Shown here piece by piece: positions 9,939 to 30,012 of a stretch of 54,619 nucleotides of DNA; the stretch's first letter is position 1; each line of letters opens with the position of its first letter. Source of the stretch: Bacteroidaceae bacterium (lineage in GTDB: Bacteria; Bacteroidota; Bacteroidia; Bacteroidales; Bacteroidaceae); contig JAFTEV010000004.1 in NCBI GenBank assembly GCA_017453465.1, positions 1-54,619 of the forward strand, read 5' to 3'. The notes beneath the pieces are model-generated. The model was not told the DNA's origin. It was given only the letters and a program-made list of their open reading frames with translations, and made no database searches. The position numbers were made by a program, and so were the translations under genes.

Positions 9939-11078
9939 TCAATGCGCTTTCAAATAATTACAATACTCTTCTAACGACCTCTTCATCACATCCTGTGGAA
10001 TGAGTTTGCGCTGATACTCTGCCACCATCGTCGGGCTGAGTGAACGACTTAAAGTATATTCCACCATGCTGCGGTCTGCCGACGGGCAAAGGATGATGCC
10101 CACACTTGGATTCTCGTTTTCGCGTTTCACATCACGGTCAAGTGCCTCCAAGTACATATCCATCTTGCCCACAAACTCTGGTTGGAAGTCAACTGCCTTC
10201 AACTCTACTGCCACCAGGCATTGCAACGCACGGTGATAGAACAGCAGGTCTATACGTTTGGTTGAGCCTCCCACTTGCACCCCATATTCACTATCTACGA
10301 ACAAGAAATCCTTTCCCAGTTCAAGTATAAACTCCTTCATGTGCTCCAGCATCCCTTTATGCAGGTGGTGTTCATTGTGCTTGGGTGGAAGATTCAAGAA
10401 GTCCACCACAGCCTTGTCTTTCAGCATGAACTCAGCGTAAGGGTATTCCGCCAGCAGCTTGGGAGACATCATCTTGTCCTTATCCATCAGTGAAGAATAG
10501 GTCTGATTGACAATGCAACGACGCAATTCCTCCGCTTTCAGTTTCTGCTGTGCCGCATAAAGCATATAGAAAACACGTTCTTCATGCGATTTGCACCTGT
10601 TGATGATTTCAACATGATTTGTAAAGGTTGTCATCGTCAACAGTGCTGGCATGGCCTCCCAATCAGGCTCCGCCATTTGTGCAGTTACCGACTGCACAAT
10701 TTCGCCTCCACCCAATTGTGCAGTCGGCAACTGCACAAATTCAGACAACTCCAGAGATTTTGCAAGACTTGTGAAGTCTGGCTGGGAATACAGCTCATAA
10801 AACTTTACCATATTGTAAAGATTCCTGCGGCTATACCCCCTACGCTTAGGGTTCATCCTTTTCAGATAATCAGCCAAGTCACTGACCACCTTCGCCCCCC
10901 AATGGGCAGACCTCAGTTGCCAAGAGACATATTGCCCCACCTCCCAGCTTGTCACTAAAGCCTCAATGTTCACTTTAACGATAGCCGACGAGCGATGTTG
11001 CTCAATGAGCAAATTGACAAACGCAAACTGTTTCTCCAGTTCGGTCTGACTGGGCATGATGGCTGCTTCTTGTTTCAT
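9939..11078 (-). CDS. DUF1016/YhcG family PD-(D/E)XK nuclease-like protein
   Basis: A 379-residue protein with the two YhcG parts. The N-terminal DUF1016 helical region has SWEVGQYVSWQL, RGYSRRNLYNMVKFYELY and, later, LLTMTTFTNHVEII. The C-terminal PD-(D/E)XK core has a KRIDLLFYHR segment and VAVELKAVDF near residue 290. The family is widespread in accessory DNA and is thought to process nucleic acids; no target is known. The ATG at 11078 is only 16 bases from the GH127 stop. A second ATG, seven codons in, is possible. Its place inside a sugar-enzyme operon is odd and suggests acquisition. Confidence 0.87.
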   Translation of the reverse strand: MKQEAAIMPSQTELEKQFAFVNLLIEQHRSSAIVKVNIEALVTSWEVGQYVSWQLRSAHWGAKVVSDLADYLKRMNPKRRGYSRRNLYNMVKFYELYSQPDFTSLAKSLELSEFVQLPTAQLGGGEIVQSVTAQMAEPDWEAMPALLTMTTFTNHVEIINRCKSHEERVFYMLYAAQQKLKAEELRRCIVNQTYSSLMDKDKMMSPKLLAEYPYAEFMLKDKAVVDFLNLPPKHNEHHLHKGMLEHMKEFILELGKDFLFVDSEYGVQVGGSTKRIDLLFYHRALQCLVAVELKAVDFQPEFVGKMDMYLEALDRDVKRENENPSVGIILCPSADRSMVEYTLSRSLSPTMVAEYQRKLIPQDVMKRSLEEYCNYLKAH

Positions 11079-11094: not shown

Positions 11095-14067
11095 CTACTT
11101 TCCCATGTTCTTTCTTGCCAACTGCAAGCGTTTCAGGGCCTTGTCAATGAGGTCGTGCGTGCCCGAACCATCGTTGACGTACTGCACCACCATGTCGGCA
11201 TAGTTGATGGCCTCGCGCAGCTCGGTGGTCTTGTTGGGGATGTTCTCCTTGGAGTCGGTGACGAGCGGAAGAAGCTCGTTCAGGTCTTCAGGCTCGGCCA
11301 GGTTGCCGGGGCGCATGGTGTTGATAACCATGTTCAGGGCCGAAGCCACCTTGTTGATTTCCTCCTGTGTCACGGCCTTCTTGTCCTTGGCCATGACAGC
11401 CTCGGCCTGTGCCTTCTGGTCGAGCAGCCGCTTGTAGCCATTCGGAGCCCAAGGCGAGAAGGCAGGCACCTTCACGGCAAGCGAATTCCAGGCGTTCTGA
11501 CTGTTCACGCGCTCCTGTGCAATCTGGATGGCTTGCTCCAGATTGGTCTTGTCAATACCCTTCTTGGCCTTCGACTTAGCTCCAGTCTCCACGTTCAGAC
11601 GGAGGTAATGCGTCTCATTGCCAGTCTGATAGTAGTCGGGCTGGAACTGATGGCCGGCAAAGCTCAGTGTGTAGAGCTTGCCGTGCGTGTCGTCCGTGCC
11701 CGTGCCGCCATTCAGTGTGATGTCGGAAAGATTGGAGGCCAGCGTGAACTCGGCATCCTTCCATTCGTGGATGTCAGGCGTGGCCATCACCAGCGGGCCG
11801 TACATCAATGCGCCCACCCACTGCGGATTGAACGGCGTGCGTGTTTCGTTCTTGCCCGTAGCAGCCAGGTCCATCTTGTCGGGACCCCAGTTGATGTGGG
11901 CTGTGAAAGGCATCGTGACCTCTACCCTATCTGCCGGACTCCAGTCTCTTTCGGGTATCTCCACGTAGGAACTGGGCTGATAGGTCTTGGCCACCGACTT
12001 GCCGTTGAGCTTGATGTCAAATCCCTTCGTAGCCCAATAGGGCACACGCAGCTTCATGGCAAAGCGAGCCAGCCTGCCGTCCTTGGCATCCATCGTGCTC
12101 ACATTGATGACACTGCGCTCTGCGGGCCATTCGCATTCCTGCTGAACCATGGCTCCCTTCTCTTCCCAATAAGCCTGTGTCGGCATATAGAGTGCCACCC
12201 AGATGGTGTTGCTGTCCACGAAGTAAGCAGCCTCCTGGTACTTCACGTGGTTCTCCACGCCAGTGCCGCCACAGCAGGTGCTCTGCGGCGTTTCGTTGCC
12301 AAAGGGCTTGCGGGCGTTCATGCCCACAGCGTACTGGTAGGTAACGCCCCATTCCTTCGGGTTCACACTGCCCACAATCTGGTTGTAGAGCACACGCTCG
12401 TAGTAGTCCATATAGGCCGCATTGTCGGGGTCAAAACAGTTGAGGTCCTTCGTCAGTTTGGCCAAGTTGTAGGCACAACAAGTCTCGTTGATGTCGGGGT
12501 TAGGATACATATTGCGGCGATGGTCGCTCATCACGCTGGTGTTCATCGAGAGCATCTGCGAATAGGGCTGCCGCCACATTTCGCCATTGCCCACACCGCC
12601 CATGGCATAGGCGTAGCGGCCCTGAATCAGTGTCCAGAAGTTGTAGGCCAGGTTGTAATAATACGGCTTACCGTTGCCCAGATAGCTGCGCAGTGCACCC
12701 GTAATCATGGGGATGTGCTGATTGGCATGGCGCGTGCGGATGTCGTCCACGTTCCGTGCCACAGGGTCGAAGAAGGCAGGAGCGTCGAAATAGTTGGAAG
12801 CCTCCAGCAGGCGCGCCTTCTCCTTGGGGTCGCCGACCATCTCGGACAGGCGGGCCAGCGACTCGGCCATGCCTCCCACCTCGCCGGCAATGTACATGTT
12901 CCACATTTCGTAGCGGTTGCCCGGACGTGCCTGACGTTCTGCCTTGTCGCCGTCGGTCTTTACGTAGGTGCGGTAGTGCAAGCGATTCCACACCCACAAG
13001 CCCATGTCCTTGGCTATCAGCAGGGCTTTGGCTCTGATGGCCTCGTCATCCACATTGTTGGCAATGTCAATCAGACCGGCCAACTGCTTGTGTATCGTGT
13101 AATAAGGTGCCCACACCCACTCCTCGTTGTTATAGGCGCGGTAACATTCTATCAGGGCTGGGTGGGCAGCGGGAATGGCATTCAGGTAGCCATAGCCATA
13201 ATGCCGATAGTCCTTCTTGTACTCATCGAAGGCGGCCCAGTTGCCTTTCATCTGCTGCAACACCCCGTCGGGCGCATAGTCGCGAGCCTCCCAGTAGCGG
13301 TTGAGGGTGCTGTCCCAGACGAAGGTGCGCTCTTGACACTCGCGCAGTTCGTCCACCATGCGCCGGATGCGACTGAGCAACTGCTGCTTCACGTCCCCAG
13401 TCCGAACCGAGGCGTAGGCAAAGGCCAGCGCACTCATGTAGTGTCCCGTGCCGTGGCCCTTCAGTTTTGTCGTGGGCGAATCCCATCCGTCGGCCACGGT
13501 GTAGCCTTCGGTGGGCAGGCCGTAAGTGTCCCGATAATTATAGAGCTGCTGCGTCACGTCCAGCGAGAGCAGTGTCTGGATGTCCAGGTCGCGGTTGTTG
13601 GTCAGGCGGTTCTCACCCGTCAGCCACACTTGGTTCAGTGGCAGCGGCGTGGCCTTGAACCGATTGGCCGGCACAGCCCAGGGAGTGGCCACCACCCTTA
13701 CATGCGCCTCCACGGGGTAGCCGTTGTCCGTGGTGTTGTCACCCACGATGAAGCCCTTCACCGTGTATTCCTTGCCCACGGGGTACAGTTCGGCGTTGGC
13801 CTCCTGCTGCTCGGTGGAGAGCAGCGAATTGGTCCAGCGCACTTGTCGCCACTCTTTGTAACCGTCTGAGTAAGTGACCCAAAGCTGGTAGGGCAGACGT
13901 GGCACTGTGCCCACAGGCGTTTCCACGCTGACGGCCTCCACGGTCTTGATGGCACGCACTTTCCCTTTCGACGCAGGGACACTGGGCAGCACGGGGCTGG
14001 CCACTACGGTTGTACAGTTCATTGCAGCCAGTGTCAGACCGCAAAGGATGAGTTTCAGGTTTTTCAT
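11095..14067 (-). CDS. GH127/GH146-type beta-L-arabinofuranosidase (DUF1680)
   Basis: A 990-residue exported glycosidase. The start at 14067 gives a clean signal peptide (MKNLKLILCGLTLAAMNC...). The Cys within it may make it a lipoprotein or may be chance. The catalytic domain shows the hallmark metal-and-nucleophile motifs: ETCCAYNLAKL, then STCCGGTGVENH, matching the Glu/Cys/Cys-Cys set known in GH127. Such enzymes remove beta-L-arabinofuranose from pectin side chains, arabinans or glycoproteins. After the catalytic part come a beta-domain and helical stretches (about 850-990) with no assigned role. It begins 10 bases after thiD. GH127 versus GH146 cannot be settled by eye. Confidence 0.87.
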   Translation of the reverse strand: MKNLKLILCGLTLAAMNCTTVVASPVLPSVPASKGKVRAIKTVEAVSVETPVGTVPRLPYQLWVTYSDGYKEWRQVRWTNSLLSTEQQEANAELYPVGKEYTVKGFIVGDNTTDNGYPVEAHVRVVATPWAVPANRFKATPLPLNQVWLTGENRLTNNRDLDIQTLLSLDVTQQLYNYRDTYGLPTEGYTVADGWDSPTTKLKGHGTGHYMSALAFAYASVRTGDVKQQLLSRIRRMVDELRECQERTFVWDSTLNRYWEARDYAPDGVLQQMKGNWAAFDEYKKDYRHYGYGYLNAIPAAHPALIECYRAYNNEEWVWAPYYTIHKQLAGLIDIANNVDDEAIRAKALLIAKDMGLWVWNRLHYRTYVKTDGDKAERQARPGNRYEMWNMYIAGEVGGMAESLARLSEMVGDPKEKARLLEASNYFDAPAFFDPVARNVDDIRTRHANQHIPMITGALRSYLGNGKPYYYNLAYNFWTLIQGRYAYAMGGVGNGEMWRQPYSQMLSMNTSVMSDHRRNMYPNPDINETCCAYNLAKLTKDLNCFDPDNAAYMDYYERVLYNQIVGSVNPKEWGVTYQYAVGMNARKPFGNETPQSTCCGGTGVENHVKYQEAAYFVDSNTIWVALYMPTQAYWEEKGAMVQQECEWPAERSVINVSTMDAKDGRLARFAMKLRVPYWATKGFDIKLNGKSVAKTYQPSSYVEIPERDWSPADRVEVTMPFTAHINWGPDKMDLAATGKNETRTPFNPQWVGALMYGPLVMATPDIHEWKDAEFTLASNLSDITLNGGTGTDDTHGKLYTLSFAGHQFQPDYYQTGNETHYLRLNVETGAKSKAKKGIDKTNLEQAIQIAQERVNSQNAWNSLAVKVPAFSPWAPNGYKRLLDQKAQAEAVMAKDKKAVTQEEINKVASALNMVINTMRPGNLAEPEDLNELLPLVTDSKENIPNKTTELREAINYADMVVQYVNDGSGTHDLIDKALKRLQLARKNMGK

Positions 14068-14077
14068 ATCGTTCTTG

Positions 14078-14911
14078 TCAGTTAGTTTCGTTGTAGATGC
14101 GCTGGTGAGCCACCTTGTCCTCCATGAAGCAGGGGTGCACGGGGCCAAAGCCGTGACCGAACTCATACTCAGCACCCAGGCTGATGGCACGGCTGATGAA
14201 CTCTTCGCCCGCCTTCACAGCCTCGTTCAGCGGATAGCGGGCAGCCAAGTAGGTGGCGATGGCAGAGGAGAACGAGTCGCCCGTGCCATTCACATTGTGG
14301 GTGTCGATGCGGGGCTTGGCAAACTCCAAGACCTCGTCCGTCGCGGCGTTGTAGAGGAAGTCGCTCAACATCTGCCCATATTCCATCGACTTGATAATGA
14401 CGGAACAGCCCCAGCGACCCAGTTCCTTGATGTCGGCACGAACATTGCGGATGGGGCGGCCCAGCAAGACCTCGGCCTCGCGTCGGTTGGGGGTAATCAG
14501 CGTAGCCAGCGGAAAGAGTTCCTGCTTGTATGCCTCGATAGCATTGTCGGCCACCAGTTTCTCGCCCACCGAATTGACGATGACGGGGTCAACAATGAGG
14601 GGCACGTGGCGATACTTCCGCAGCACGGTGGCCACGCCCCGGATGATTTCCTCGTTGGGCAACACGCCTGTCTTGATGCAGCCCGTGGCGATGTCGCCCA
14701 GGAAGGACTCGGCTTGCGACACAATCAGGTCCACGGGCAAGTGGAAGATGCGCTTCACGCGACGAGTGTCTTCGTCCACAATGCTCGTCACCGCACAAGC
14801 GGCATAGCCACCACAGGCTGTGATGGCCTTGATGTCGGCCTGCATCCCTGCACTGCCCAGCGGCTCACTGCCCGCAATGAGGAATACCACGTTTAACGAT
14901 TTTTTTTGCAT
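14078..14911 (-). CDS. thiD: Hydroxymethylpyrimidine/phosphomethylpyrimidine kinase
   Basis: A 277-residue cytosolic kinase of the PfkB-like ThiD family. ThiD phosphorylates HMP and HMP-phosphate in thiamine synthesis; pyridoxal kinases share the fold. Motifs seen are AGSEPLGSAGMQADIKA at the N-terminus, GGYAACAVTSI, a central TPNRREAEVLLG and the catalytic NVNGTGDSFSSAIATYLA near residue 215. The ATG at 14911 is used because longer starts add an unrelated basic stretch. A TACTTTTG box lies about 55 bases upstream. It is the first gene of a close-packed run with two glycosidases, unlike a standard thi operon. Confidence 0.86.
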   Translation of the reverse strand: MQKKSLNVVFLIAGSEPLGSAGMQADIKAITACGGYAACAVTSIVDEDTRRVKRIFHLPVDLIVSQAESFLGDIATGCIKTGVLPNEEIIRGVATVLRKYRHVPLIVDPVIVNSVGEKLVADNAIEAYKQELFPLATLITPNRREAEVLLGRPIRNVRADIKELGRWGCSVIIKSMEYGQMLSDFLYNAATDEVLEFAKPRIDTHNVNGTGDSFSSAIATYLAARYPLNEAVKAGEEFISRAISLGAEYEFGHGFGPVHPCFMEDKVAHQRIYNETN

Positions 14912-15252: not shown

Positions 15253-15289
15253 CAAAAAAAGACACCACCCCGAAAGAAAACGGAGCGGT
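15253..15289 (-). terminator. Intrinsic terminator of the exopolysaccharide operon
   Basis: On the minus strand ACCGCTCCG and CGGGGTGGT pair over nine bases with an eight-base loop, followed by GTC and seven Ts. It lies 38 bases after the response regulator stop. Confidence 0.7.
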
Positions 15290-15326
15290 GCCGGAGTGGA
15301 GTCTCAGTGAAGTGCGGCGGCTGCGA

Positions 15327-15752
15327 CTATGCGTTGCCGCTGGTGGCAGCCTTCAGATTGATTTGCGTGGTAACGCTGCTGATGAGCTTTTCCATAATGA
15401 TGGGCTTGTTGATGAAGTCGTTGGCACCGAGCTTGAAGCCCTTCACGATGTCGGCCTCAGAGTTGAGAGCCGAGAGGATGATAATAGGCAGCGACTTGGT
15501 CTTCTCGTCAGCACGTAGGCGGCGAATGACTTCAAAGCCGTCTATGCCAGGCATCATCAGGTCGAGCAACAGCAGGTCGGGCTGGTCTTTGGCTATCATA
15601 TCGAGTGCCGCCTGCCCACTGTTGGCCGTCTGCAACTGAAACGTGTACTGGGAGAGCATCTTTTTGATGAGAAGCACATTGAGAGGTACATCATCGACCA
15701 CTAAGACTTTCAATTCATCCACATTGATACCAGGATTGATAAGTGCATTCAT
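15327..15752 (-). CDS. Single-domain response regulator (CheY-like receiver)
   Basis: A 141-residue protein consisting of one receiver domain with no output domain. The acidic pair is D20-D21 (VLVVDDV), the phospho-acceptor D64 (LLLLDLMMPGIDG), the switch Ser S94 and the conserved Lys K116 (NDFINKP), so it should be phosphorylatable. It is the last gene of the candidate exopolysaccharide operon, 86 bases after the nucleotide-sugar dehydrogenase. No histidine kinase is nearby, so its kinase must be elsewhere. A likely role is to control synthase activity by protein contact, possibly through the zinc-ribbon membrane protein; this is inference from gene order. Confidence 0.88.
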   Translation of the reverse strand: MNALINPGINVDELKVLVVDDVPLNVLLIKKMLSQYTFQLQTANSGQAALDMIAKDQPDLLLLDLMMPGIDGFEVIRRLRADEKTKSLPIIILSALNSEADIVKGFKLGANDFINKPIIMEKLISSVTTQINLKAATSGNA

Positions 15753-15838
15753 AAAAATAGGTTTTAATGATTAAAGAAATAATTTATGTTTGTTAGGTTT
15801 CTGTTTCGGATTGTTTTCTGGGCTGGGACTGACAGCCA

Positions 15839-17134
15839 TCAGATTTCGTGGTAGAAGGGTTCGCCCTGCATGGCAGAACGGTAGAAGCCCTTGATGTCAC
15901 AGAGAATGCCGCCGGGACGCAACATGGCGGGGACGGGCAGTGTGGCAAACTCCCGGTGCTTGACACAGAGCAGGATGGCGTCGTACTGCTGGCCGGCTAT
16001 GGCAGCGATGTCCGACACGATGTCCACACCGTAGTCCTGCTTCACCAGCGCAGGGATGGCGTAGGGGTCGGCAATGGTGACGGTGTCGCAGAATTGGTTG
16101 AGTTCGTGCACGACATCGATGACCTTGGTGTTGCGGATGTCGTTGCAGTTCTCCTTGAACGTAAAGCCCAGCACCAGGACACGGGCACTCTTGGGCGCAA
16201 TGTCGGTCAGGTTCATCAGCTTGACAACTTGGTCAGCGATGTACTTGCCCATGGTGTCGTTGATGCGACGGGCTGCGGTGAGCAGATTGGCCGATTCGCG
16301 ATAGGCCATGGCTCGCTGAATGAGGTAGTAGGGATCAACGCCGATGCAGTGGCCCCCAACGAGACCCGGCTCAAGCCGAATGAAGTTCCACTTCGTACCG
16401 GCTGCTTCGAGCACGTCGCGTGTGTTAATGCCCATGGCGTTAAAGATGTGGTCTATCTCGTTCATAAAGGCGATGTTGACATCACGCTGGCAATTCTCCA
16501 CAATCTTGCAGGCTTCGGCCACGCGCATTGTGGGTGCTTTGTGGGTGCCGTTCTCCAGCACCGAGCCATAGAGCCTGTCAACGAAGTCGGCCACTGCGGG
16601 CGTGGAGCCGGAGGTGACTTTCTTGATGCGCTCCACGGTGTGCTCGCGGTCGCCTGGGTTCACACGTTCTGGCGAATAGCCTGCGAAGAAGTCCACGTTG
16701 AACTTCAGTCCCGACACGCGCTCGACCACGGGGAGGCAGTCTTCCTCGGTTGCTCCGGGATAGACGGTGGACTCGTAAACCACTACGTCGCCCTTGGAAA
16801 TGTGGCGACCCACAACTTCGCTGGCTCCAATCAGGGGGCGCAGGTCAACCAGGTGGTGCTTGTCAACCGGAGTCGGCACGGCCACGATATAGACATTGCA
16901 GGTGTCCAGCGCAGCTTCGTCACTGGTACACGTCAAGCCGCCCCGAAGCGAGGCTTGCATTTCTGCGTCGGTAAAGGTGTCGGTAGAGTCGTGTCCCGAC
17001 AGCAATTCTTCTACACGAGACTTGCTAACATCAAATCCCACTACGCTGTACTTGCGCGCAAAGAGGCAAGCCAGCGGAAGTCCTACATAGCCCAGTCCTA
17101 TTACGGCTATCTTTGAGTTTTGTATGTTCTGCAT
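15839..17134 (-). CDS. Nucleotide-sugar 6-dehydrogenase (TviB/WbpO-like)
   Basis: A 431-residue cytosolic enzyme of the UDP-glucose/GDP-mannose dehydrogenase superfamily. It oxidises the C6 of a UDP-sugar twice with NAD+ to the uronic acid. The NAD-binding motif is VIGLGYVGLPLA (11-22), and the catalytic Cys is C263 in GGHCIGVDPYY. The overall style (VAVPTPVDK, AGYSPERVNPGD) fits the TviB/WbpO group acting on UDP-HexNAc better than classical UDP-glucose dehydrogenase, but substrate cannot be read with certainty. Next to a GT2 synthase it would supply an acidic sugar for the polymer. The 93-base gap upstream contains the AT-rich CATTAT motif. Confidence 0.88.
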   Translation of the reverse strand: MQNIQNSKIAVIGLGYVGLPLACLFARKYSVVGFDVSKSRVEELLSGHDSTDTFTDAEMQASLRGGLTCTSDEAALDTCNVYIVAVPTPVDKHHLVDLRPLIGASEVVGRHISKGDVVVYESTVYPGATEEDCLPVVERVSGLKFNVDFFAGYSPERVNPGDREHTVERIKKVTSGSTPAVADFVDRLYGSVLENGTHKAPTMRVAEACKIVENCQRDVNIAFMNEIDHIFNAMGINTRDVLEAAGTKWNFIRLEPGLVGGHCIGVDPYYLIQRAMAYRESANLLTAARRINDTMGKYIADQVVKLMNLTDIAPKSARVLVLGFTFKENCNDIRNTKVIDVVHELNQFCDTVTIADPYAIPALVKQDYGVDIVSDIAAIAGQQYDAILLCVKHREFATLPVPAMLRPGGILCDIKGFYRSAMQGEPFYHEI

Positions 17135-17160
17135 ATCAATGAATGAATGTGTTTGTTTCT

Positions 17161-17181
17161 TTATTATATATATAATGTGTA
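17161..17181. repeat. AT-rich CATTAT-type motif, intergenic copy
   Basis: The minus strand reads ACACATTATATATATAATAA. It lies between the GT2 synthase and dehydrogenase genes. Near-identical motifs occur at 28.4 kb and 43.6 kb between genes, and inside several genes. Confidence 0.65.
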
Positions 17182-17227
17182 CCCGTGCGGCGGGTGTGTT
17201 TGCAGCGAATTGGCCCAGAGGCTGTGA

Positions 17228-18544
17228 CTAAGCCCGCTCCAGCTGGGCATACCTTGAAGTCTTCTTCGGATTCCACGGGTCTTTGTAGGAAGAGAAGAAG
17301 AAGAGTTCCTTGGTGTGGGCTATGAGACGCACAATGCGCATGAAGTAGCCCGTGTAGAGCGAAGTCAGCGGCAGGAAACGAATGAGGAAGAACTCTTCGC
17401 GCTTACGCTCCGTCACGGCCATAATCACGGTAAAGGCAATCAGCGAAAAGCCGAAACGCAGGAGGAAGTCGAGCAGCATGACCTCGAAGATGTGCTCGCT
17501 GAAGGTCCACATGAGGTTGACGAAGTAGAAGAGCCAAATGTAGTTGAAGACGCAGTCGTAGATGATGCTCTCCATGTTGGAGGCAAAGTTGGAGAAGTTC
17601 CAGTTGCGCTGCGGCAGCAGAATGTCGCGGTGCTTGCGCACACGGAAGCGGATGAGTGACTTGGACCAGCGCAGACGTTGCTTGAAGAGCTTGGTCCACT
17701 TGGTCGGCACGCTGGTGAGGCAGACTGCGTCCTCTGCGAATGCCACTTTGTAACCTGCCTTGCGTATTTTCTGTGTGATGTCGCCGTCGAGGCCTGGGCC
17801 AATGTCCCAGTAGCCCACCTTCTTCAGGGTCTCCACATCGAAGGCTCCGAAGGCTCCCGATATGATGTGCAGAATGCCCAGCTTGGCTGTCACCATGCGC
17901 CCCACCATGATGGTCTTGAGGTACTCCACGGCCTGCATGGAGGAGCAGATGGTCTCCTTGTAGTTGCGCACCTTCACCGTGCCGCCCACGCCCTTCACCT
18001 GCGAGTCGAGATAGAAGGGCAGGAGTATCTTCTCTATGGCATCGCGGTCGAGCGAAGAGTCGGCATCGAGGTGGACAATGTATTTGCCACGGGCGTAGTA
18101 GGCTCCGTAGTTGGCTGCGCTGGCTTTGCCGCCACGGACATTGCAGCGCAGGAAGCGGTCGATGTAGCCATGACGCTCCAATTCGGTGCCTATGAGCGGG
18201 GTCATATCGTCGGAACCGTCGTCCACAACAATGATTTCGTAGTTGTGGTAGGTCTGTTCGGCCAGGGATTTCACCAGCTTGTAGATGTTCTTGCCTTCGT
18301 TCTTGCCCGGAACCAGAATGGTTATCAGCGGGTTTTCCTTAAAGAGACGGAAACGGGCGTAGAACACTTTCTTGTTTTCGCGCTTGTAGGTCAGCACGTG
18401 CCACACCACAACGATGATTTCGAGCAGATAGTATCGAGGAAACTCAATACAGAAGAGAAACCAGTATGTGTTGAAGATACTGGAGAAGGACAGGTGTTGC
18501 AACCATGTCACAAAAGTCTCTAAGCTGTCGAAAATAAAGTTCAT
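17228..18544 (-). CDS. Processive family 2 glycosyltransferase (polysaccharide synthase)
   Basis: A 438-residue inner-membrane synthase. A hydrophobic segment (about 25-50) precedes the cytosolic GT-A domain, and further hydrophobic segments (about 325-405) follow it. All marks of a processive beta-synthase are present: VDDGS at 107-111, the DxD in LDADS at 159-163, an Asp pair in GLDGD at 251-255 where cellulose synthases have TED, and QRLRW at 289-293. Enzymes with this set (cellulose, hyaluronan, Alg8 and BgsA types) polymerise and translocate one polysaccharide chain. The product here is unknown; the dehydrogenase gene suggests an acidic unit. No PilZ domain is present, so cyclic-di-GMP control, if any, is not through this chain. 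Confidence 0.88.
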   Translation of the reverse strand: MNFIFDSLETFVTWLQHLSFSSIFNTYWFLFCIEFPRYYLLEIIVVVWHVLTYKRENKKVFYARFRLFKENPLITILVPGKNEGKNIYKLVKSLAEQTYHNYEIIVVDDGSDDMTPLIGTELERHGYIDRFLRCNVRGGKASAANYGAYYARGKYIVHLDADSSLDRDAIEKILLPFYLDSQVKGVGGTVKVRNYKETICSSMQAVEYLKTIMVGRMVTAKLGILHIISGAFGAFDVETLKKVGYWDIGPGLDGDITQKIRKAGYKVAFAEDAVCLTSVPTKWTKLFKQRLRWSKSLIRFRVRKHRDILLPQRNWNFSNFASNMESIIYDCVFNYIWLFYFVNLMWTFSEHIFEVMLLDFLLRFGFSLIAFTVIMAVTERKREEFFLIRFLPLTSLYTGYFMRIVRLIAHTKELFFFSSYKDPWNPKKTSRYAQLERA

Positions 18545-18564
18545 CTGGACGGGGTTGCGTGCGG

Positions 18565-20238
18565 TTATTTCATGAGAAGAATGAAGATGGCAAGGATGAT
18601 GGCTACGATGGTGAGTGCCGCAAGGAGGATGTAGAGCACGTTGAACTTGCGCTGCTGGGGCACTTCGGGCTGTGGCTTTGGCTCAGGAAGCGGGACTTCG
18701 TTGCTGACCCGCAGTTCTTCTGCTGTGGGGGCATGGTAGAATTCATCGACCGTGCCATCATCGCGCAGGGGTGCGGATGTGTCGTCTGTGGCATTGGGGT
18801 TGATGGCTTCGGGATTGTAGTCCACTGCGTCGTCGGGAGTAGCCGTCACAAACTGTAGGTCGTTAAGGAACTGGTCGATGTTGGAGCCGTCGCCTTCGAG
18901 CTTCATGTATGTGTAGCAGATTTGTTCGCCCGGCTTGAGGACGTAGGCCGCTGCACGGATGGCCTCGGAGAGCAGTATCTGGAAGTCGAGAATGGCTTGT
19001 TCCTGATCGCCCTTGTAGTCGGTGACGATGTCGTTGATATAGGTAATGTTGTTGGCCGCAGAGACTTTGTTGTTGGGGAAGTATTTGCAAATCTGTGCCA
19101 GCAGTTCGGCGCGATTGGCCACTGTAGCGGCTGTGGCATCGAGAATCCAGATTTTGCCGACCAGAACGTCTCCTGCAATGCGGCCTGTGAACTTCTGTTC
19201 GGCCAAAAGACGGATGCGGTTGACGAAGCGGTCAAATTCGAGGAAGTTGTCGTAGAACTCGGTGTAGATGGAGAAGCCTATGTTGAGCGACGTGATGGCA
19301 ATGACTCCTTCCTTTGTGATTTCATAGATGTTGCAGTTCTGCGGAACGAGGGACTTCACGTCGGACGTGGTGTGGCAGTTGGAGCATACGGCTTGCATCT
19401 TGGCCTGCAAGAAGGAGTTGCCGCAGGAGTCACAGGTGAAGACGGTGGCCGGACGGTCGTAATCCACGCCGATGTGGTGCAGCATCTGGTGACACTTGGG
19501 GCAGCGCAGCTGTCCGCCAAAGTTGTAGGTGTGTTCGGGTGTGATGTTGGCACAGCGGAAGTGGTGAATGACCTCTTCGCTCTGTATCATGGAGTTGCCA
19601 CACTTGGGGCAGCTCTCGATGTAGAGTAGGTGGGAGTGCAGGCACTTAGGGCAGAGGTAGATGCGATTGACGAACTGGGTGGAGCGGATGTAGCCTTTCT
19701 CCAGCATGGACTGTATGAAGACAAAGAGTTCGCCCAGTGTGTACCAGCCCAGCTTGTAGAACACATTGATGATGGGGACTACATAGCCCGTGGCAGAAGT
19801 GTTGTCAAGTTCCAGGTCGAGCTTGAGGTGGTCCCGAATGATGAGAAAGCGGAAAAGGCGGACGAAGAACTGGTTGGCAGAGACTATCTTGTCTTCGATG
19901 GAGGTGAGCTTGAGTTCACTGCGACGGTTGATGATGTCTTCTACCTTGTTGAGTGCACCCACGTCGTTCCAATCATCAAAATAGCCGTCAATCAGGTCGG
20001 CATACTCGCCCATCTTGCCTTCGAGCGAGCGGGAGACGAAGAAGGGTTTGTAGCAGCACTTGACGGATGTGACGGGGTTGATGGTGTTCAGTATGTTCTG
20101 GGTCATATCGACCGAGTCATTGAGAATGAACACTGCATCGAAGATATATTCGGGAAAGTCAGGCGACTCCTCAAGTGGGAACGGACTGTCTAACAAGAGT
20201 ATTTTACGCTCGTGCTCGTTGTTCTGTATGGTAATCAT
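18565..20238 (-). CDS. Tail-anchored zinc-ribbon protein with degenerate receiver-like N-terminus (TackOD1-like)
   Basis: A 557-residue protein not confidently assigned. Residues 10-100 look like a degenerate receiver: KILLLDS, FDAVFILND and a KP in CCYKPFF, but no clear acidic pocket. Residues 196-288 hold five CxxC pairs (196/199, 210/213, 246/249, 269/272, 285/288), a multi-zinc-ribbon module. It may belong to the TackOD1 output-domain group found beside signalling domains, but this is from memory of its style. A mixed alpha/beta region spans about 300-450, then a Pro/Asp-rich linker, then a single C-terminal membrane helix (533-555), so the bulk faces the cytosol. It lies 3 bases after the adaptor gene and 20 bases before the synthase. 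Probable role: cytosolic regulator or scaffold of the synthase. Confidence 0.55.
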   Translation of the reverse strand: MITIQNNEHERKILLLDSPFPLEESPDFPEYIFDAVFILNDSVDMTQNILNTINPVTSVKCCYKPFFVSRSLEGKMGEYADLIDGYFDDWNDVGALNKVEDIINRRSELKLTSIEDKIVSANQFFVRLFRFLIIRDHLKLDLELDNTSATGYVVPIINVFYKLGWYTLGELFVFIQSMLEKGYIRSTQFVNRIYLCPKCLHSHLLYIESCPKCGNSMIQSEEVIHHFRCANITPEHTYNFGGQLRCPKCHQMLHHIGVDYDRPATVFTCDSCGNSFLQAKMQAVCSNCHTTSDVKSLVPQNCNIYEITKEGVIAITSLNIGFSIYTEFYDNFLEFDRFVNRIRLLAEQKFTGRIAGDVLVGKIWILDATAATVANRAELLAQICKYFPNNKVSAANNITYINDIVTDYKGDQEQAILDFQILLSEAIRAAAYVLKPGEQICYTYMKLEGDGSNIDQFLNDLQFVTATPDDAVDYNPEAINPNATDDTSAPLRDDGTVDEFYHAPTAEELRVSNEVPLPEPKPQPEVPQQRKFNVLYILLAALTIVAIILAIFILLMK

Positions 20239-20241
20239 GGG

Positions 20242-21471
20242 TTAATAATTGTGGTCTTTGGTCAGTTCCTTGAATTTGGTAGTATCTACAGGAACAAGAA
20301 TCTGGTCTTCTTTTACTTCAAATATGCGACGTGGGTCATACTGAATGGTGTCGGGCTGTGAGAAGAGTCCATTGAAAATGCCGCCGAAAGAGTTGTAGAA
20401 TGTGTCGTACAGCACATTGTTGGCCACCCTGACCCGCACGGGCACGTGGTCGTTGAGCACCCAGAAGGGGATGTACTGCCCTGCATCGAATGTGAAGAGT
20501 GCGATGACAGCGTCGATGTCATGGCTGAAGTTGCTGATCAGATGCTTTGGGATGTCCTCAACACGGAGTCCCAACAGCGACAGGTGTGCATAGAAGGTGA
20601 GGTCGTCGTTGACAATGACCTCGATGCGCTTGTTGTTGTTGATGTACTTCACTTGGTTGGCTGGGATGTAGGCCATCACGCCGAGGTGAGAAGCCTTGTA
20701 GTCGGTGTGCTGCAAGTCCATTACGTTCTCCTTCTCGAAGACCACCGTGTTCTTGGCCACCTTGATGTCTGTGACGATGGCTTCTTCGGGCGCACAGCAA
20801 TACTGTATCACACCGGCCTCGTAGCGGTTCTGTCCTGGTGAATAGGGCAGGTGGTTGTGGCCGTAACCCGAATTGACAATGTAGCGAGAGGAGTTGCCTG
20901 CCATGCTTTCGTAGATTTGAATCTTGCGCTGCTGTTCCAACAGTTTCTCGCGACACTCGTTGAGTTCAGCTTCGATGGCCATGCGCTTGGAGTTGTCGGT
21001 GAGACCATAGAAGATGTCGTTCTTTTCGCTCTTCAGGCGTTTCGTCAGTTCGTTGATTCGGGTCTGCAACACAGGAATCTCCTGCCGCGCAAGGGCTGCC
21101 TGAAGTTTCAGGTTGGCATGGTCAAGGATGATGGATGGGACAGCGTTGACATTGAACTGGCCTAACAGGTTGTCGAGAAGCACGTAGGAATAGAGTGTGT
21201 CGCCAGGCTGAACAATGTCGCCCACATTCTTGTAGATGTCGAGCACATACAAATCATCAATGGCACGCAGGTTGTTTTGGTCGAGCTTCACATAGCCATC
21301 ATAATAGGTGTAAACCACTCTGCGATAGGCAAAGACAAACAAAATAATCAGAATGGCGGTAAAAACAATGGCATAGATTGTTTGCTGTTTGGCGAGTTTC
21401 TTGTTCTGATAGTTCAGAAACTCGTTCATATCTTGTTCTTGAGGCTGTGAGTTATAGCTGAAGTTGTTCAT
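20242..21471 (-). CDS. HlyD-like membrane-fusion/adaptor protein
   Basis: A 409-residue inner-membrane protein: a short cytosolic N-terminus, one membrane helix (about 32-49), then a periplasmic part. An early barrel-sandwich strand set (VLDIYKNVGDIVQPGDTLYSY, near residue 75-95) is followed by a coiled-coil hairpin (about 120-195), then the second half of the barrel and beta-domains (from about 225). This is the layout of HlyD/EmrA adaptors and of the BgsB/Alg44-type partner of GT2 synthases. It overlaps the upstream TolC-like gene by 4 bases, indicating translational coupling. It would bridge the synthase to the outer-membrane protein. The hairpin is short compared with drug-efflux adaptors. 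Confidence 0.72.
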   Translation of the reverse strand: MNNFSYNSQPQEQDMNEFLNYQNKKLAKQQTIYAIVFTAILIILFVFAYRRVVYTYYDGYVKLDQNNLRAIDDLYVLDIYKNVGDIVQPGDTLYSYVLLDNLLGQFNVNAVPSIILDHANLKLQAALARQEIPVLQTRINELTKRLKSEKNDIFYGLTDNSKRMAIEAELNECREKLLEQQRKIQIYESMAGNSSRYIVNSGYGHNHLPYSPGQNRYEAGVIQYCCAPEEAIVTDIKVAKNTVVFEKENVMDLQHTDYKASHLGVMAYIPANQVKYINNNKRIEVIVNDDLTFYAHLSLLGLRVEDIPKHLISNFSHDIDAVIALFTFDAGQYIPFWVLNDHVPVRVRVANNVLYDTFYNSFGGIFNGLFSQPDTIQYDPRRIFEVKEDQILVPVDTTKFKELTKDHNY

Positions 21472-22853
21472 TTGACAGGTGTTTCAATGATGAGTGTCTG
21501 CAAATTGTTGTAACTCGTCGTTTTCTGAATATCAAGAAGCGCAAGGCTGCGACTGAGCATCAACTTATACATGCGCTCCATGCTTTTAAGGTATTCGTTG
21601 TATTCCTCCAGACGAATGATGTAATTGTAGCCCTTGGGCTGTTTCAAGTAGGCATTCTTACGCAGTTCCACATATTTGCCCAACTGTTCTATGTGGAATG
21701 CTTCTGTGCGGATAGCCCTGTTTAACCGCTCCACGCGGTCGAGACGAAGACGGCAATAAGACTTCATGTCTTCATCCAGAGACTGGCGGCTTTCCCGAAT
21801 GATTTGTTTTTCGGTTTCGATGGCACGACGTTTTGCCCCCGATTCGTCGTAAAGCGGGAAGGTGAAGCGCACGCCCAAATCAATGTTGGAAGACGGAGAA
21901 ACCAGCTTGCGCAAGTACATGGAACCGCGTAAGAACGGGGTCAGGCGCATGGTCTGCCCATAGTTGGTGAGCTTCTTTTCCTTATCGAGCAACTGCTCCT
22001 GCACATAGCTGGCACGAAGGTCGGGGTTGTAGCGTTGCACTTCTTCAAAAAGGCGGACAGAGTCAATGGTTATGATGGTAGGGCGAAGGGCGTAGAGGGG
22101 TTCGTTGGCAATGTCTTTCAAATCGAATGTCTGTGCAAGCGTGTATTCCAGCTCCATCTTGTCGTTGATGTTCTCAAGCAGTTTGTCGTTGCTGATTTTA
22201 TCTTGCTCCAGCATGTACTGGTATGCCTGATTCAGAATATCTACATTCTGCAATTCGTTATACAGCACAATGGCGATGTAGTAGTTGTACTCCATCGTCA
22301 GCAGATTCTCCGCAGCCTCATAGATGGCCTTGTTCTTGTCCTTGCTCTGCTTGATGTATTCCAGCTCGTTGGCAAGTTGAATCCGTGCCAGCTCAGACTT
22401 ACGCTGATAGAATGCGCTGTTGAAGAAGTTCCAGCCCAGTTCTGCTTGAAACTTGGCCACGTATGCCGAATACTGGTCGTCATCGTCGTGGGAAATGACC
22501 AACGCCTGATCCAATCGTCCGTATGCCTGTCCCGTCACTTCCAGTCCAGTGCGGCGTTTGAAGGCTTTTGCCTCCTGCGCTCCTTTGGCACGATAGAGCG
22601 AATCAAGAGCAGCATCGGGCAACAAGACATCTTCGCCCAAAGTCAAGTTGGGGCTTGCAACAGAAACGCTGTGCTGCAACAACTTGTCCATTTGTTCAAA
22701 ACGCTGGTCAAACTGCCTCAACACATCTTCATTCTTGAGATTCTCATAAACAAGCATCTTGACGGGCACATGGGCTGTGTCGTCCTGTGCATTGGCTGCA
22801 CAAAAAAAGAAAAATAAAGAAGGAAGAATGAAGAACCTGAGCTTCTCTGCCAT
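21468..22853 (-). CDS. TolC-family outer-membrane channel protein
   Basis: A 461-residue exported protein. The signal peptide ends at CAANAQ near residue 23. The mature part has the two long helical arms typical of TolC/OEP proteins (heptad-rich stretches at about 150-270 and 310-450), each following strand-like segments such as DLGVRFTFPLYDESGAKRR near residue 335. It would form the trimeric outer-membrane exit duct. Most synthase-dependent systems use AlgE/BcsC-type barrels with TPR partners, so a TolC duct paired with a HlyD adaptor is notable. The start lies 88 bases after the surface lipoprotein gene, with a strong hairpin in between. Confidence 0.78.
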   Translation of the reverse strand: MAEKLRFFILPSLFFFFCAANAQDDTAHVPVKMLVYENLKNEDVLRQFDQRFEQMDKLLQHSVSVASPNLTLGEDVLLPDAALDSLYRAKGAQEAKAFKRRTGLEVTGQAYGRLDQALVISHDDDDQYSAYVAKFQAELGWNFFNSAFYQRKSELARIQLANELEYIKQSKDKNKAIYEAAENLLTMEYNYYIAIVLYNELQNVDILNQAYQYMLEQDKISNDKLLENINDKMELEYTLAQTFDLKDIANEPLYALRPTIITIDSVRLFEEVQRYNPDLRASYVQEQLLDKEKKLTNYGQTMRLTPFLRGSMYLRKLVSPSSNIDLGVRFTFPLYDESGAKRRAIETEKQIIRESRQSLDEDMKSYCRLRLDRVERLNRAIRTEAFHIEQLGKYVELRKNAYLKQPKGYNYIIRLEEYNEYLKSMERMYKLMLSRSLALLDIQKTTSYNNLQTLIIETPVK

Positions 22854-22880
22854 AGGTATCAGAAAGGTATAGAATGTAAC

Positions 22881-22926
22881 GACACCGTGGGAATGTCATC
22901 AAAAAGTGATGCATTCCCACAGTGTC
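22881..22926 (-). promoter_or_regulatory. 46-base hairpin between lipoprotein and TolC-like genes
   Basis: GACAC, GTGGGAATG and CATCA (22881-22902) pair with TGATG, CATTCCCAC and GTGTC (22908-22926) around an AAAAG loop, with one mismatch and one bulged T. No T-run follows on either strand, so it is not a typical terminator. It may stabilise the upstream message or mark a processing site, giving unequal expression within the operon. Confidence 0.8.
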
Positions 22927-22941
22927 ATAAGATTGATTTTC

Positions 22942-25356
22942 TTATTGGAAAAGTTCTGCAAGGTCATAAATCTGAAGACCATACATACCGTATGCAACGT
23001 AAGCCTTCTTGCCTGTAACTTTCACGAAGTTAGAAGACTGCTTGGTAGCGTCAGTTTCGTCAATCAGCGTAGCATAGCGTGCATTGCCAATGCCGAAGTA
23101 GCCATAACGCTTCACGGTCTTGTTATAGACAACGCCATTGTCTTCGTAGGTCTCAGTCTGTGACAGAACTGCCAGACCAGACCCCGTAGCAATGTAGATG
23201 TACTTATCGTCGGCATCAACGCCGTTGGCAGACTTCTTTGAACCACCTACACGGTTGCCGTTGTAGTCATACACATCAAAGCCATTTGCACCACGGCAAA
23301 CATAAATCTTGTTGCCGTCACCAATGCAGACGTTCTTACCATCTGTTGGAGTGATTGCACCAACGTTGAACGACTTCACGTGAATCATGTCCTGAGTGTA
23401 GAGAGAAACAGTGCCGTTTGCAACATCGTTGAGCGTGATGATATATGTACCGTCATTATAGATGTACTTGCCGTAGAATGATTCGCCATCTACAATGGCC
23501 TTCTTCTCCTGGTTGCTGTAGTCAGTAAGACCGAACTTGTTGATAGCACCATTGGTTGAGCCAGAGATAGTCAGCAGTTCGCCATTGTTGATGATGCAGC
23601 AGTTGGCCGAAGAACCAGTCAGGTTGACACGGATGTTCTTGCTGGCAAAGTTTGCCTCGTCAATTGTGCCGTCGATGTTCAGAGCAACTTCGTGGAGAGC
23701 AGCACCCACCTTGTTGCTTGTAGAAGGCAGATAGAGCTTGCCGTCATAGTAAACAACGTGGTTATACTTGTGCTCGTTCTGAATCAAAGTCTGGTCGAAG
23801 AGGTAAGTAGAAGGATCGCCATAGTTGTTGGTGTTGATGACATCAATAATGCCACCCCAGTCAGCAAGACCGTCAACAGAGACGCTTGAACCATCAGCGT
23901 TGGTCACATACATGTTCGTGCCATGAGCATGGTCAGCCTCGCCATCATTACCGATGTTTGAGTGCCATGACAGATAGAGCTCACCGTTAGGACCGAAGTC
24001 GAGAGCTGTAGCAGAATACTTGTGTACAGGAGGAGTTACAATTACGATAGGAGTATTGTAGTTGTAGCCAGGAGCACATTCTGTCGGAGCCATCGAGAAG
24101 TTTGCCAACTCTTCGTCTGCAATATACACACCTGGCTGCACAGTGATGTTCGACTTAGCCAGTTCGTTTGCCAGTTCGTGGTCATTGCCAACGAAGTAGA
24201 ACTTCTCAGCATCCAGAGCAAAAGCAGAGCCAGAAGCAGCATTCTCAACACGGAAAGAATTCAGAACCTGAGTTACGCCATTACCCTCGTTGTTGGCAAT
24301 GATGTTAGCCTTCACAACAGCCTTGGCGTTCTCGCCTTCCAGAATGACAACGGCATTGTTGCTGTTGTTCTCGTCCTTGTAAGTGCCAGCCACCTCAATC
24401 ATGCTGCCGTCAGCAAGGTGAATCTTGCTGGTTGCGCAAGCATAAACATTGCCAGCAGAGAGGTAGTTGATCCAAGCCTCCGACTCGTTGGAATTGATGT
24501 TGAACAGCCCCGGAGTGAACACCTGGCAGCCAGCAGCAAACTTCGTGTAAGCCTCCAGCGAAATGTTTGGAGCCTCTACTCTACCCTGCACAACCAGTGT
24601 CTGCTGTACGAGCAGGTCTGTGTTAAGAATCAAGTCGCCAGCAACGTAGCACTTAGCATCCTTCTCAATCCAGAAGTTCTTGCAGTGAACGTCACCACCG
24701 ATATAGATATTAGCGCGATTGGCACGGAAGTCAATATCATCGCCCAAGTCCAAGTCACCGTAGTTATACAGTGCACCTGTAGCCTGGTCAATGTAAAGTT
24801 CCTTCTTGGCATTGCTGCAGTTCAATTCACCATAATTGTAGATGTTGAACTGAACAGGAAGATCAGTATTATAATTCAAAGTACCTCCAGGCAAAACGTA
24901 AATTTTAGCAGGAACTTGACCGCTGCCTGTCCAAGCAGAAGTGCCCCAGTGGTTACCCAAGTCCAGTGTACCCTGAACATAAAATTCATCACCATTAAGA
25001 CCCAGGTTACTACCATCGTATGTCACGCCAGCAGGAATGAAATATTTAGTGTTTGACTGTATTTCCCAGCCATTCACACCAGCCATACTCTTGGCATCAG
25101 AAGGAACAGCGGGAGCCTCAGCCATGCTTGAAGTCACGCCCAACAAATTGATAACAGAAGAAGAAACGGCACGAGTGCCCATTGTTTCGAGGTCGTTGAA
25201 GTTTACGATACGATTTGCATCGCTCTTCACAAATGCAAAATCAGAAGAAGACGTAAGGTTTGCCTGTGCAGCACCATTGTTGTCAGACAAGCCGTCATCG
25301 GTAGAACACGCTGCCATCATAAGGGCGGCAGCACCGAATAACCAAAATTTTTTCAT
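22942..25356 (-). CDS. Large surface lipoprotein with beta-helix-like and beta-propeller-like regions
   Basis: An 804-residue lipoprotein. The ATG at 25356 gives MKKFWLFGAAALMMAAC with the lipobox Cys at residue 17. The following STDDGLSD is acidic, like the export signal that places Bacteroidota lipoproteins on the cell surface. Residues about 100-320 are short repeats rich in YxYGxLxxxN-like turns (NYGELNCSN, NYGDLDLGD, IYIGGDVHC), suggesting a beta-helix. Residues about 440-800 look like propeller blades ending with GLQIYDLAELF. No enzyme motif was seen. Codons are more AT-rich than in neighbours, as in highly expressed genes. As first gene of the operon it may bind or organise the exported polymer; this is inference. 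Confidence 0.7.
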   Translation of the reverse strand: MKKFWLFGAAALMMAACSTDDGLSDNNGAAQANLTSSSDFAFVKSDANRIVNFNDLETMGTRAVSSSVINLLGVTSSMAEAPAVPSDAKSMAGVNGWEIQSNTKYFIPAGVTYDGSNLGLNGDEFYVQGTLDLGNHWGTSAWTGSGQVPAKIYVLPGGTLNYNTDLPVQFNIYNYGELNCSNAKKELYIDQATGALYNYGDLDLGDDIDFRANRANIYIGGDVHCKNFWIEKDAKCYVAGDLILNTDLLVQQTLVVQGRVEAPNISLEAYTKFAAGCQVFTPGLFNINSNESEAWINYLSAGNVYACATSKIHLADGSMIEVAGTYKDENNSNNAVVILEGENAKAVVKANIIANNEGNGVTQVLNSFRVENAASGSAFALDAEKFYFVGNDHELANELAKSNITVQPGVYIADEELANFSMAPTECAPGYNYNTPIVIVTPPVHKYSATALDFGPNGELYLSWHSNIGNDGEADHAHGTNMYVTNADGSSVSVDGLADWGGIIDVINTNNYGDPSTYLFDQTLIQNEHKYNHVVYYDGKLYLPSTSNKVGAALHEVALNIDGTIDEANFASKNIRVNLTGSSANCCIINNGELLTISGSTNGAINKFGLTDYSNQEKKAIVDGESFYGKYIYNDGTYIITLNDVANGTVSLYTQDMIHVKSFNVGAITPTDGKNVCIGDGNKIYVCRGANGFDVYDYNGNRVGGSKKSANGVDADDKYIYIATGSGLAVLSQTETYEDNGVVYNKTVKRYGYFGIGNARYATLIDETDATKQSSNFVKVTGKKAYVAYGMYGLQIYDLAELFQ

Positions 25357-25400
25357 ACTCAAATACATTTATTAAGTTCAACTTACATATTATTTCGCGG

Positions 25401-25408
25401 CAAAGGTA
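25401..25408 (-). promoter_or_regulatory. Promoter -7 box of the exopolysaccharide operon
   Basis: The minus strand reads TACCTTTG followed by CCGCG. Transcription would start about 40 bases before the lipoprotein ATG. It is the only clear -7 box found for the seven-gene run. Confidence 0.7.
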
Positions 25409-29577: not shown

Positions 29578-29658
29578 CACGATTTAAACAAAAAGCCTTT
29601 TTTGAGGCTTCTGCTCAAAAAAGTACCGCCCAGATTTGTGTGGGTGAAGAAATGTCGT

Positions 29659-29666
29659 TACTTTTG
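29659..29666 (+). promoter_or_regulatory. Promoter -7 box upstream of the methyltransferase leader
   Basis: TACTTTTG followed by CAG is a clean TAnnTTTG match. Transcription would start near 29673, about 340 bases before the first methyltransferase ATG, so the structured region in between would be transcribed. A 27-base hairpin (CTTTTTTGAG/CTCAAAAAAG, 29597-29623) lies just upstream. Confidence 0.6.
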
Positions 29667-29981: not shown

Positions 29982-30012
29982 TCTTCCGATTTAGACTGAT
30001 GTGCAACAAGCA

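Follow-up and report, generated by a model that had tools for sequence, protein, structure and literature searches.

A TackOD1-associated GT2/HlyD/TolC operon of Bacteroidota as a likely exopolysaccharide machine of the Mxd kind, apparently working without c-di-GMP

A seven-gene operon of a Bacteroidaceae bacterium most likely encodes an Mxd-like, synthase-dependent machine for exopolysaccharide, fitted to a cell in which cyclic di-GMP (c-di-GMP) seems to be lacking, a reading to which we give a probability of about 0.7. The operon lies on the minus strand, between positions 25368 and 15327, of a 54,619-nucleotide (nt) stretch (contig JAFTEV010000004.1 of assembly GCA_017453465.1; hereafter the window, meaning the whole stretch). 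It runs from a lipoprotein gene through genes for a TolC-like outer-membrane factor (OMF), a HlyD-like adaptor, a zinc-ribbon regulator with a TackOD1 domain, a family 2 glycosyltransferase (GT2) and a nucleotide-sugar dehydrogenase to a single-domain response regulator (RR). A first-pass annotation of this DNA had proposed a trans-envelope polysaccharide synthase with a TolC/HlyD exit route, and that remains the best reading: a structure model bears out the TolC fold, the order of the genes is conserved, and the GT2 motifs are of the processive type. The kind of system is not new, as modules of TackOD1, GT2 and HlyD also occur in Alpha- and Gammaproteobacteria and the layout matches mxdABC of Shewanella. 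What is new is the finding of no GGDEF domain over cut-off and no PilZ domain in 26 operon-bearing genomes, together with a regulator whose c-di-GMP site is mostly lost. Protein families, two protein folds, gene order, co-occurrence, receiver arrangements and these absences and losses were computed directly; G and L numbers below are our labels for genomes and loci.

Conservation of the gene order across Bacteroidota, suggested beforehand as a check, was found for a four-gene core, OMF-HlyD-TackOD1-GT2, in 28 loci of 27 genomes, two of the loci being cut by contig ends. This count combines a Bacteroidota sample, a 301-genome sample of the family and six operon genomes of the window genus. HlyD is present in 28/28 loci, the TolC-type gene in 27 (G331 cut) and TackOD1 in 27 (G353 cut), and GT2 lies directly behind TackOD1 in all 27 loci whose contig extends that far, the G353 contig ending after HlyD. 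A dehydrogenase, a lipoprotein or a small gene resembling a degenerate receiver (REC*) intervenes between HlyD and TackOD1 in some of them. Presence was determined by tblastn and by family profiles, whose E-values refer to a small set of fetched open reading frames (ORFs); G074 (a sub-threshold match with a stop) and G403 (a weak HlyD match, no operon) were omitted. TackOD1 exceeded its cut-off in 10 genomes of the 247-genome Bacteroidota sample, the window genome included. In the family sample HlyD matched in 15 genomes (G403 among them) and GT2 in 14, with 13 in common, that is, 13/14 GT2-positive and 13/15 HlyD-positive genomes (Fisher p 7e-20; the genomes are not independent, and five first-look GT2 candidates were scored per genome). 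The sole GT2-only genome, G324, proved to hold a diverged OMF-HlyD-TackOD1-GT2-lipoprotein operon. When genera of the family are compared, GT2 is conserved best of all the parts (62-68% identity; 46% for G324), and TolC shows 26-41% identity. Lipoprotein homologues lie near 22 of the 28 loci (two weak, E about 1e-12) and the dehydrogenase at 17; in the window genus, a dehydrogenase at >=58% identity was found in 6/6 operon genomes versus 2/39 others. Two genes are split, the GT2 of G339 (L093 6553-7862) and the dehydrogenase of G285 (L036 12979-14248), by pseudogene formation or assembly error.

All seven ORFs were called on the minus strand, as first annotated, and recalculation returned the same core spacing: the TolC and HlyD genes overlap by 4 nt, and gaps of 3 nt and 20 nt separate HlyD from the zinc-ribbon gene and the latter from GT2. 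The outer intergenic gaps are 88, 93 and 86 nt. The GT2 gene (17228..18544) encodes a membrane enzyme of the processive type, as had been claimed. Its motifs [VI]DDGS, DAD, DGD[ILV]T and QRxRW occur in 25/25 aligned proteins (the split G339 and the later-found G324 left out), and QxxRW is typical of processive GT2 enzymes. The best NCBIfam match is PgaC_IcaA (TIGR03937; 157.6 bits, under the equivalog cut-off of 422.3). Judged by its motifs, the enzyme is predicted to be an inner-membrane polysaccharide synthase. Viral contigs searched for GT2 relatives yielded none.

The TolC-like gene (21468..22853; 461 aa) encodes an outer-membrane factor whose TolC fold was confirmed by a structure model, and a sequence search of the OMF family profile against solved structures gave no match. 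The product of the HlyD-like gene (20242..21471) is an adaptor of the HlyD/EmrA/MacA type with one N-terminal transmembrane segment (TM; 26-55, by hydropathy). It reaches only E 0.023 against Pfam HlyD_3, the cut-off of which is exceeded by its relatives in L024 and L029; the family profile matched membrane fusion protein 8dck (9.8e-08), EmrA (2.2e-06) and MacA (2.5e-04) among 13 matches that included some coiled-coil tektins. The first gene (22942..25368) probably encodes a lipoprotein that is a surface partner of the polymer: a lipobox-like AAC-S was recognized by eye, and relatives, with LVIVD/propeller-like repeats, match LVIVD and DUF5074 under the curated cut-offs only. The product of 15839..17134 is a nucleotide-sugar 6-dehydrogenase (NCBIfam NDP-sugDHase, 357.9 bits, over the cut-off of 189.8), nearest to the UDP-HexNAc types; its best model is TviB (NF011729; 448.1 bits, under the equivalog cut-off of 592) and its best PDB matches are 4r16 and Cap5O. 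It is accessory to the exporter. The suggestion of an acidic polymer is thus plausible for the window and does not extend to the family, since it rests on a dehydrogenase that is not present at every locus. No NCBIfam family was over cut-off for the TackOD1, HlyD, TolC, GT2 or lipoprotein products.

The zinc-ribbon gene (18565..20238) had been regarded as encoding a tail-anchored subunit of the secretion apparatus. It is instead a signalling protein, in which a degenerate receiver (about residues 1-115) is followed by TackOD1 (122-307; PF18551, 161.5 bits against a cut-off of 32), a degenerate GGDEF-like domain (GGDEF*; 323-472) whose fold is supported by structure analysis, a low-confidence linker and a TM at 530-557. 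The zinc-ribbon pattern of five CXXC pairs and one HXXC (C196/199, C210/213, H226/C229, C246/249, C269/272 and C285/288) is kept in 36/36 aligned rows, one pair being CXC in two relatives (G331, G433). The membrane tail holds for the window protein and was rejected as a defining feature of its family, as a C-terminal TM was predicted by hydropathy in only three operon genomes (G000, G283 and G430).

The machine apparently dispenses with c-di-GMP. The GGDEF and PilZ searches covered every operon genome but G353, 26 in all, and returned from these no GGDEF domain over cut-off and no PilZ match of any kind; the sole weak GGDEF match was the TackOD1 protein of G203. Run on 14 control genomes, the PilZ and GGDEF searches gave matches in 5 and 8. 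The window regulator has neither the RxxD site nor a GGDEF motif, and RxxD is lost in 34/36 Bacteroidota rows. A c-di-GMP-binding domain or subunit, as found in canonical synthase-dependent systems, is accordingly not evident from the proteins.

Switching is instead probably the work of a phosphorylated receiver. The RR gene (15327..15752) encodes a canonical receiver (PF00072, 2.6e-30) with DD20-21, D64, S94 and K116 intact. In the window genus the arrangement is REC*-TackOD1 plus this separate canonical RR, and the RR pairs with the TackOD1 gene in 23/23 loci read. In 5/5 other-class loci a canonical receiver (REC) is fused to TackOD1, each with a separate REC*-like gene. Other single-domain RRs lie near L022-L025 and L031, that of L031 just upstream, and kinase, Hpt and RR genes adjoin L024, L104 and L110, among them the Palleronia and Roseibium loci. 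Phosphorylation is the likely input because of these fused, separate, upstream and adjoining receiver genes taken together. The genes directly behind the exporter operon of G480 (L094 8756-11694) encode an NMT1-like binding protein and a dCache-HAMP-SpoIIE phosphatase, possibly another signalling input.

The RR itself had been counted as part of the exporter, and we rejected it as an exporter subunit: the 12 operon loci from elsewhere in the family, outside the window genus, yielded no homologue (two of these loci are cut), and it accompanies TackOD1 in 17 genus loci that hold no exporter genes. Of 45 genomes in the genus, 36 carry TackOD1 and only 6 the HlyD gene; for the 35 other TackOD1-bearing genomes, the reading of flanks covered 22. 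Among the 20 loci fetched first, 17 (L046-L058, L060, L061, L063 and L064) have TackOD1 with the RR directly behind it and no exporter, and the RR is the last gene in 6/6 genus operons. Where read, the neighbours of the exporter-free pairs look by eye like housekeeping genes (sufC/D-, ribF- and hisS-like). In a midpoint-rooted TackOD1 tree with some long branches, the 17 exporter-free proteins group together as the sister of the six operon proteins and sit within a wider set of operon-borne ones. Loss of the exporter in these genomes, with the pair kept, is the simplest reading.

We propose the following mechanism. The GT2 would polymerize a sugar chain at the inner membrane; in the window genome a hexosaminuronic acid, formed by the dehydrogenase, is probably part of its substrate. 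The HlyD-type adaptor would receive the chain, which would then leave through a TolC-fold duct, presumably trimeric, outside which the propeller-type lipoprotein may hold or organize it. The REC*-TackOD1-GGDEF* protein would sit at the GT2 on the cytoplasmic side and switch it. The input would be a phosphorylated receiver, which in the window genus is the separate RR, expected to bind the TackOD1 protein once phosphorylated, and in other lineages the receiver fused to TackOD1.

Two alternative explanations give the exporter genes a different task. The TolC and HlyD proteins might belong to an ordinary efflux pump or to a type I secretion system, while the adjacent GT2 makes an unrelated glycan or glycolipid. 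Both the TolC fold and the HlyD family are indeed those of tripartite pumps, an MFS/HlyD/outer-membrane pump lies near L105, and ABC transporter genes occur further out in L104 and L106. The operon, however, has no pump gene, its inner-membrane enzyme being the GT2. Nothing stands between OMF and GT2 in the 28 loci except HlyD, TackOD1 and, at some loci, the dehydrogenase, lipoprotein or small REC*-like gene, and no ABC or RND family appeared among the sample of further neighbours scanned by Pfam. Pairing of TolC/HlyD homologues with ABC or RND pumps rather than with GT2 had been named in advance as one finding that would overturn the proposal; because these homologues travel with GT2, the test did not refute it. 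GT2 is moreover the part most conserved between genera, and seven outer-membrane factors end in a glycosidase-like domain, so that we regard a pump as unlikely. Somewhat less credit still goes to an accessory locus for capsule or glycoconjugate, with sugars being attached by the GT2 to a lipid or to a Wzy-type repeat, and with ducts that play an accessory part. Close homologues of the dehydrogenase do occur beside a Polysacc_synt_2 polysaccharide-biosynthesis gene in G250, outside the operon, and near weak Wzz-like and MatE-like genes in G282. Against this, the seven window proteins gave no Pfam or NCBIfam match to a flippase, Wzy, Wzz or initiating transferase, QxxRW is invariant among the aligned GT2 proteins, and the best named GT2 match is a polymerizing synthase.

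A third alternative accepts the exporter and holds that its regulator still senses a cyclic dinucleotide through the GGDEF-like domain, as in an ordinary c-di-GMP-type system. The fold of the domain, the three of three gammaproteobacterial relatives that keep the RxxD site and exceed the GGDEF cut-off, and the report that MxdA binds c-di-GMP (PMC7666153; papers are cited here from excerpts) all speak for it, as do the two Bacteroidota rows (G064 and G042) with an aligned RxxD. The motif losses in the window regulator and the empty searches of the 26 genomes tell against it, and we consider it the least probable of the three. We favour the exopolysaccharide machine apparently freed from c-di-GMP.

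Several observations weigh against that preference. The Bacteroidota members are known from their genes alone as regards polymer, phenotype and interaction, and Shewanella was compared by description only. The two retained RxxD sites count here too. Completeness of 90% or more, with contamination of 5% or less, applies to 14 of the 26 searched genomes, and the window genome stands at 85% completeness and 6% contamination. The window TolC-like and HlyD-like proteins are not over any Pfam cut-off, so their names rest on the model and on relatives, and the GT2 exceeds the cut-off of no named NCBIfam family. The dehydrogenase is missing at 11/28 loci (two of those cut), and the TackOD1 protein of G324 has no GGDEF-like domain. 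Because the RR is missing from the other operons of the family, its role in the exporter is argued by analogy; and because most genus loci read keep the TackOD1/RR pair without an exporter, that pair must have another target.

Among described systems the closest is mxdABCD of Shewanella oneidensis, on which aggregation and biofilm depend; it comprises a regulator, a type II glycosyltransferase of the membrane and a homologue of efflux pumps (PMC3691769). MxdA reportedly acts as an effector that binds c-di-GMP, and it interacts with CheY3, a single-domain regulator. The biofilm defect is rescued by two foreign CheYs, both of which bind MxdA, and a non-binding one gives no rescue; Mxd probably produces an exopolysaccharide (PMC7666153). 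Window and Shewanella alike have a GGDEF-like regulator, a GT2 and an HlyD-type or efflux-pump homologue side by side, a layout also fitted by gammaproteobacterial TackOD1-GGDEF/GT2/HlyD loci (Plesiomonas, Photobacterium and Aeromonas). The Shewanella regulator is reported to interact with a single-domain RR; in the window genus the gene for such an RR lies in the neighbourhood of the regulator gene. From this layout and these relatives we infer homology to Shewanella MxdABC. Unlike MxdA as described, the window regulator has no RxxD and its genome no GGDEF match over cut-off; and unlike Mxd, the Bacteroidota operons include a TolC-type factor of their own, in most cases a propeller-type lipoprotein and in many a dehydrogenase, with the HlyD gene preceding the regulator rather than behind GT2.

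Other known systems share single elements. The first-pass annotation knew of none that uses a TolC duct together with such a zinc-ribbon subunit; a GT2-HlyD-TolC route has been proposed for cyanobacterial cellulose (XcsA, HlyD-like XcsB and TolC), which according to the review lacks experimental validation (PMC12430437), and the Aeromonas plasmid described below carries a TolC gene in its module. The window shares synthase, adaptor and duct with the Xcs model. The Xcs genes, however, are not in one operon, the Xcs synthase has a PilZ or PCR domain, and the excerpt mentions no TackOD1. Degenerate GGDEF domains are found in two cytoplasmic regulators of polysaccharide secretion, BcsE of Escherichia coli cellulose, which also has a degenerate receiver (PMC7439463), and PelD of Pel (PMC8461298). 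The window regulator resembles BcsE in joining a degenerate receiver to a degenerate GGDEF domain, and differs from both in lacking the RxxD I-site, since BcsE and PelD are described as keeping RxxD and binding c-di-GMP; no zinc ribbon is mentioned for either in the excerpts. Canonical synthase-dependent systems are defined by a GT2 synthase, a c-di-GMP-binding domain or subunit, periplasmic modification enzymes, and a TPR protein with an outer-membrane pore (PMC7112194). Among the seven window proteins Pfam gave no TPR match, the outer-membrane protein having a TolC fold instead, and Pfam and NCBIfam gave no family of periplasmic polysaccharide modification enzymes, the glycosidase-like domain occurring only in relatives. 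TackOD1 itself was described from archaea, with five CXXC and one HXXC, in REC-TackOD1 architectures and in thaumarchaeal type IV pilus loci, its function being called obscure (PMC5847659); here its context is GT2, HlyD and TolC. Searches of open-licence PMC papers listed none that describes a GT2/HlyD/TolC exporter from Bacteroidota or a bacterial TackOD1 associated with GT2.

The core is not confined to Bacteroidota, the phylum for which it had been suggested. By tblastn, TackOD1 was found in 18 plasmid records and a window-type GT2 in 9 (E up to 1e-40), all among the 18; the window HlyD protein gave no plasmid match. In ten bacterial plasmid regions read (L104-L113), TackOD1, GT2 and HlyD follow the same order in 9/9 not cut by the record start, and these nine proteobacterial loci belong to Alpha- and Gammaproteobacteria. 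HlyD was called by annotation or Pfam in eight and by the family profile in L105; the unannotated L108 rests on ORFs, profiles and Pfam. In Aeromonas (L113) the order is TackOD1-GT2-TolC-HlyD, and the TolC protein matches OEP (E 3.8e-09). One region read in a haloarchaeal plasmid (L114 4839-5822) holds TackOD1 (E 2.4e-27) without an annotated GT2 or HlyD.

A shared C-terminal domain extends the outer-membrane factor in seven cases, namely the five other-class loci, G324 and Aeromonas. The Aeromonas protein shares part of it (profile E 2.1e-11 in a four-protein search, positions 11-112 of 241); it gave no glycoside hydrolase (GH) family match there and a weak one to Pfam MEDS (E 7e-4, under cut-off). 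GH18 or GH30 matched three of the seven, all under curated cut-offs and all among the five other-class loci, the remaining two of which gave no GH match. Because of these three sub-cut-off matches and the shared profile we call the domain glycosidase-like; it looks, from sequence comparison, like a glycoside-hydrolase barrel.

A wider proposal, to which we lend slightly less than even odds, is a cross-phylum TackOD1 class of synthase-dependent secretion, comprising TackOD1, GT2, HlyD and TolC with a duct that sometimes ends in a glycosidase-like domain. Its Bacteroidota branch would have abandoned c-di-GMP, leaving a relic GGDEF domain only in the exporter's regulator and a phosphorylated receiver as the switch, and in one genus the regulator pair may have outlived the exporter and taken another target.

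Signals around the window operon are sparser than the one clear promoter first annotated. A perfect match, TACCTTTG, to the Bacteroides-type -7 consensus lies upstream on the minus strand (25401..25408, read from 25408 to 25401), but a TTTG -33 box is missing at the usual spacing, so the operon does not have the strict promoter pattern of Bacteroides. Perfect TTTG-N17..22-TANNTTTG sites number 6 in the whole window against 0.47 expected, 0 of them belonging to the operon; one, at 29635-29666, lies about 300 bases ahead of an ORF pair (30001-32194, plus strand) formed by an Eco57I-type DNA methyltransferase and a neighbour with a sub-cut-off MmeI match. Sigma-70-like sites are not above chance (10 found, 9.9 expected). 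A terminator-like hairpin of 12 pairs followed by a T run stands just behind the last gene (15261..15292, minus strand), and such sites across the whole region, 7 against 11.8 expected, are likewise not above chance. Downstream of the operon, on the minus strand, lie genes for a GH127 beta-L-arabinofuranosidase-like protein (11095-14190), whose position is kept in some operon genomes, and a YhcG/DUF1016-type PDDEXK nuclease (9939-11078). A 100% identical operon copy on a second contig (C82) of the assembly is probably an assembly duplicate. The nearest named relatives of the window genome are uncultured Prevotellaceae/Bacteroidales genomes.

In the excerpts, the Mxd machine is a Shewanella system; its regulator gene was at first listed as being of unknown function, and no exit route is named. 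The operon family offers a testable answer on each point, namely TackOD1 as the domain of the regulator and a duct of the TolC type as the exit. The steady neighbourhood of TackOD1 with GT2 and HlyD in bacteria suggests a function for this domain, and the Bacteroidota operons provide a natural case of an exopolysaccharide machine that seemingly works without c-di-GMP.

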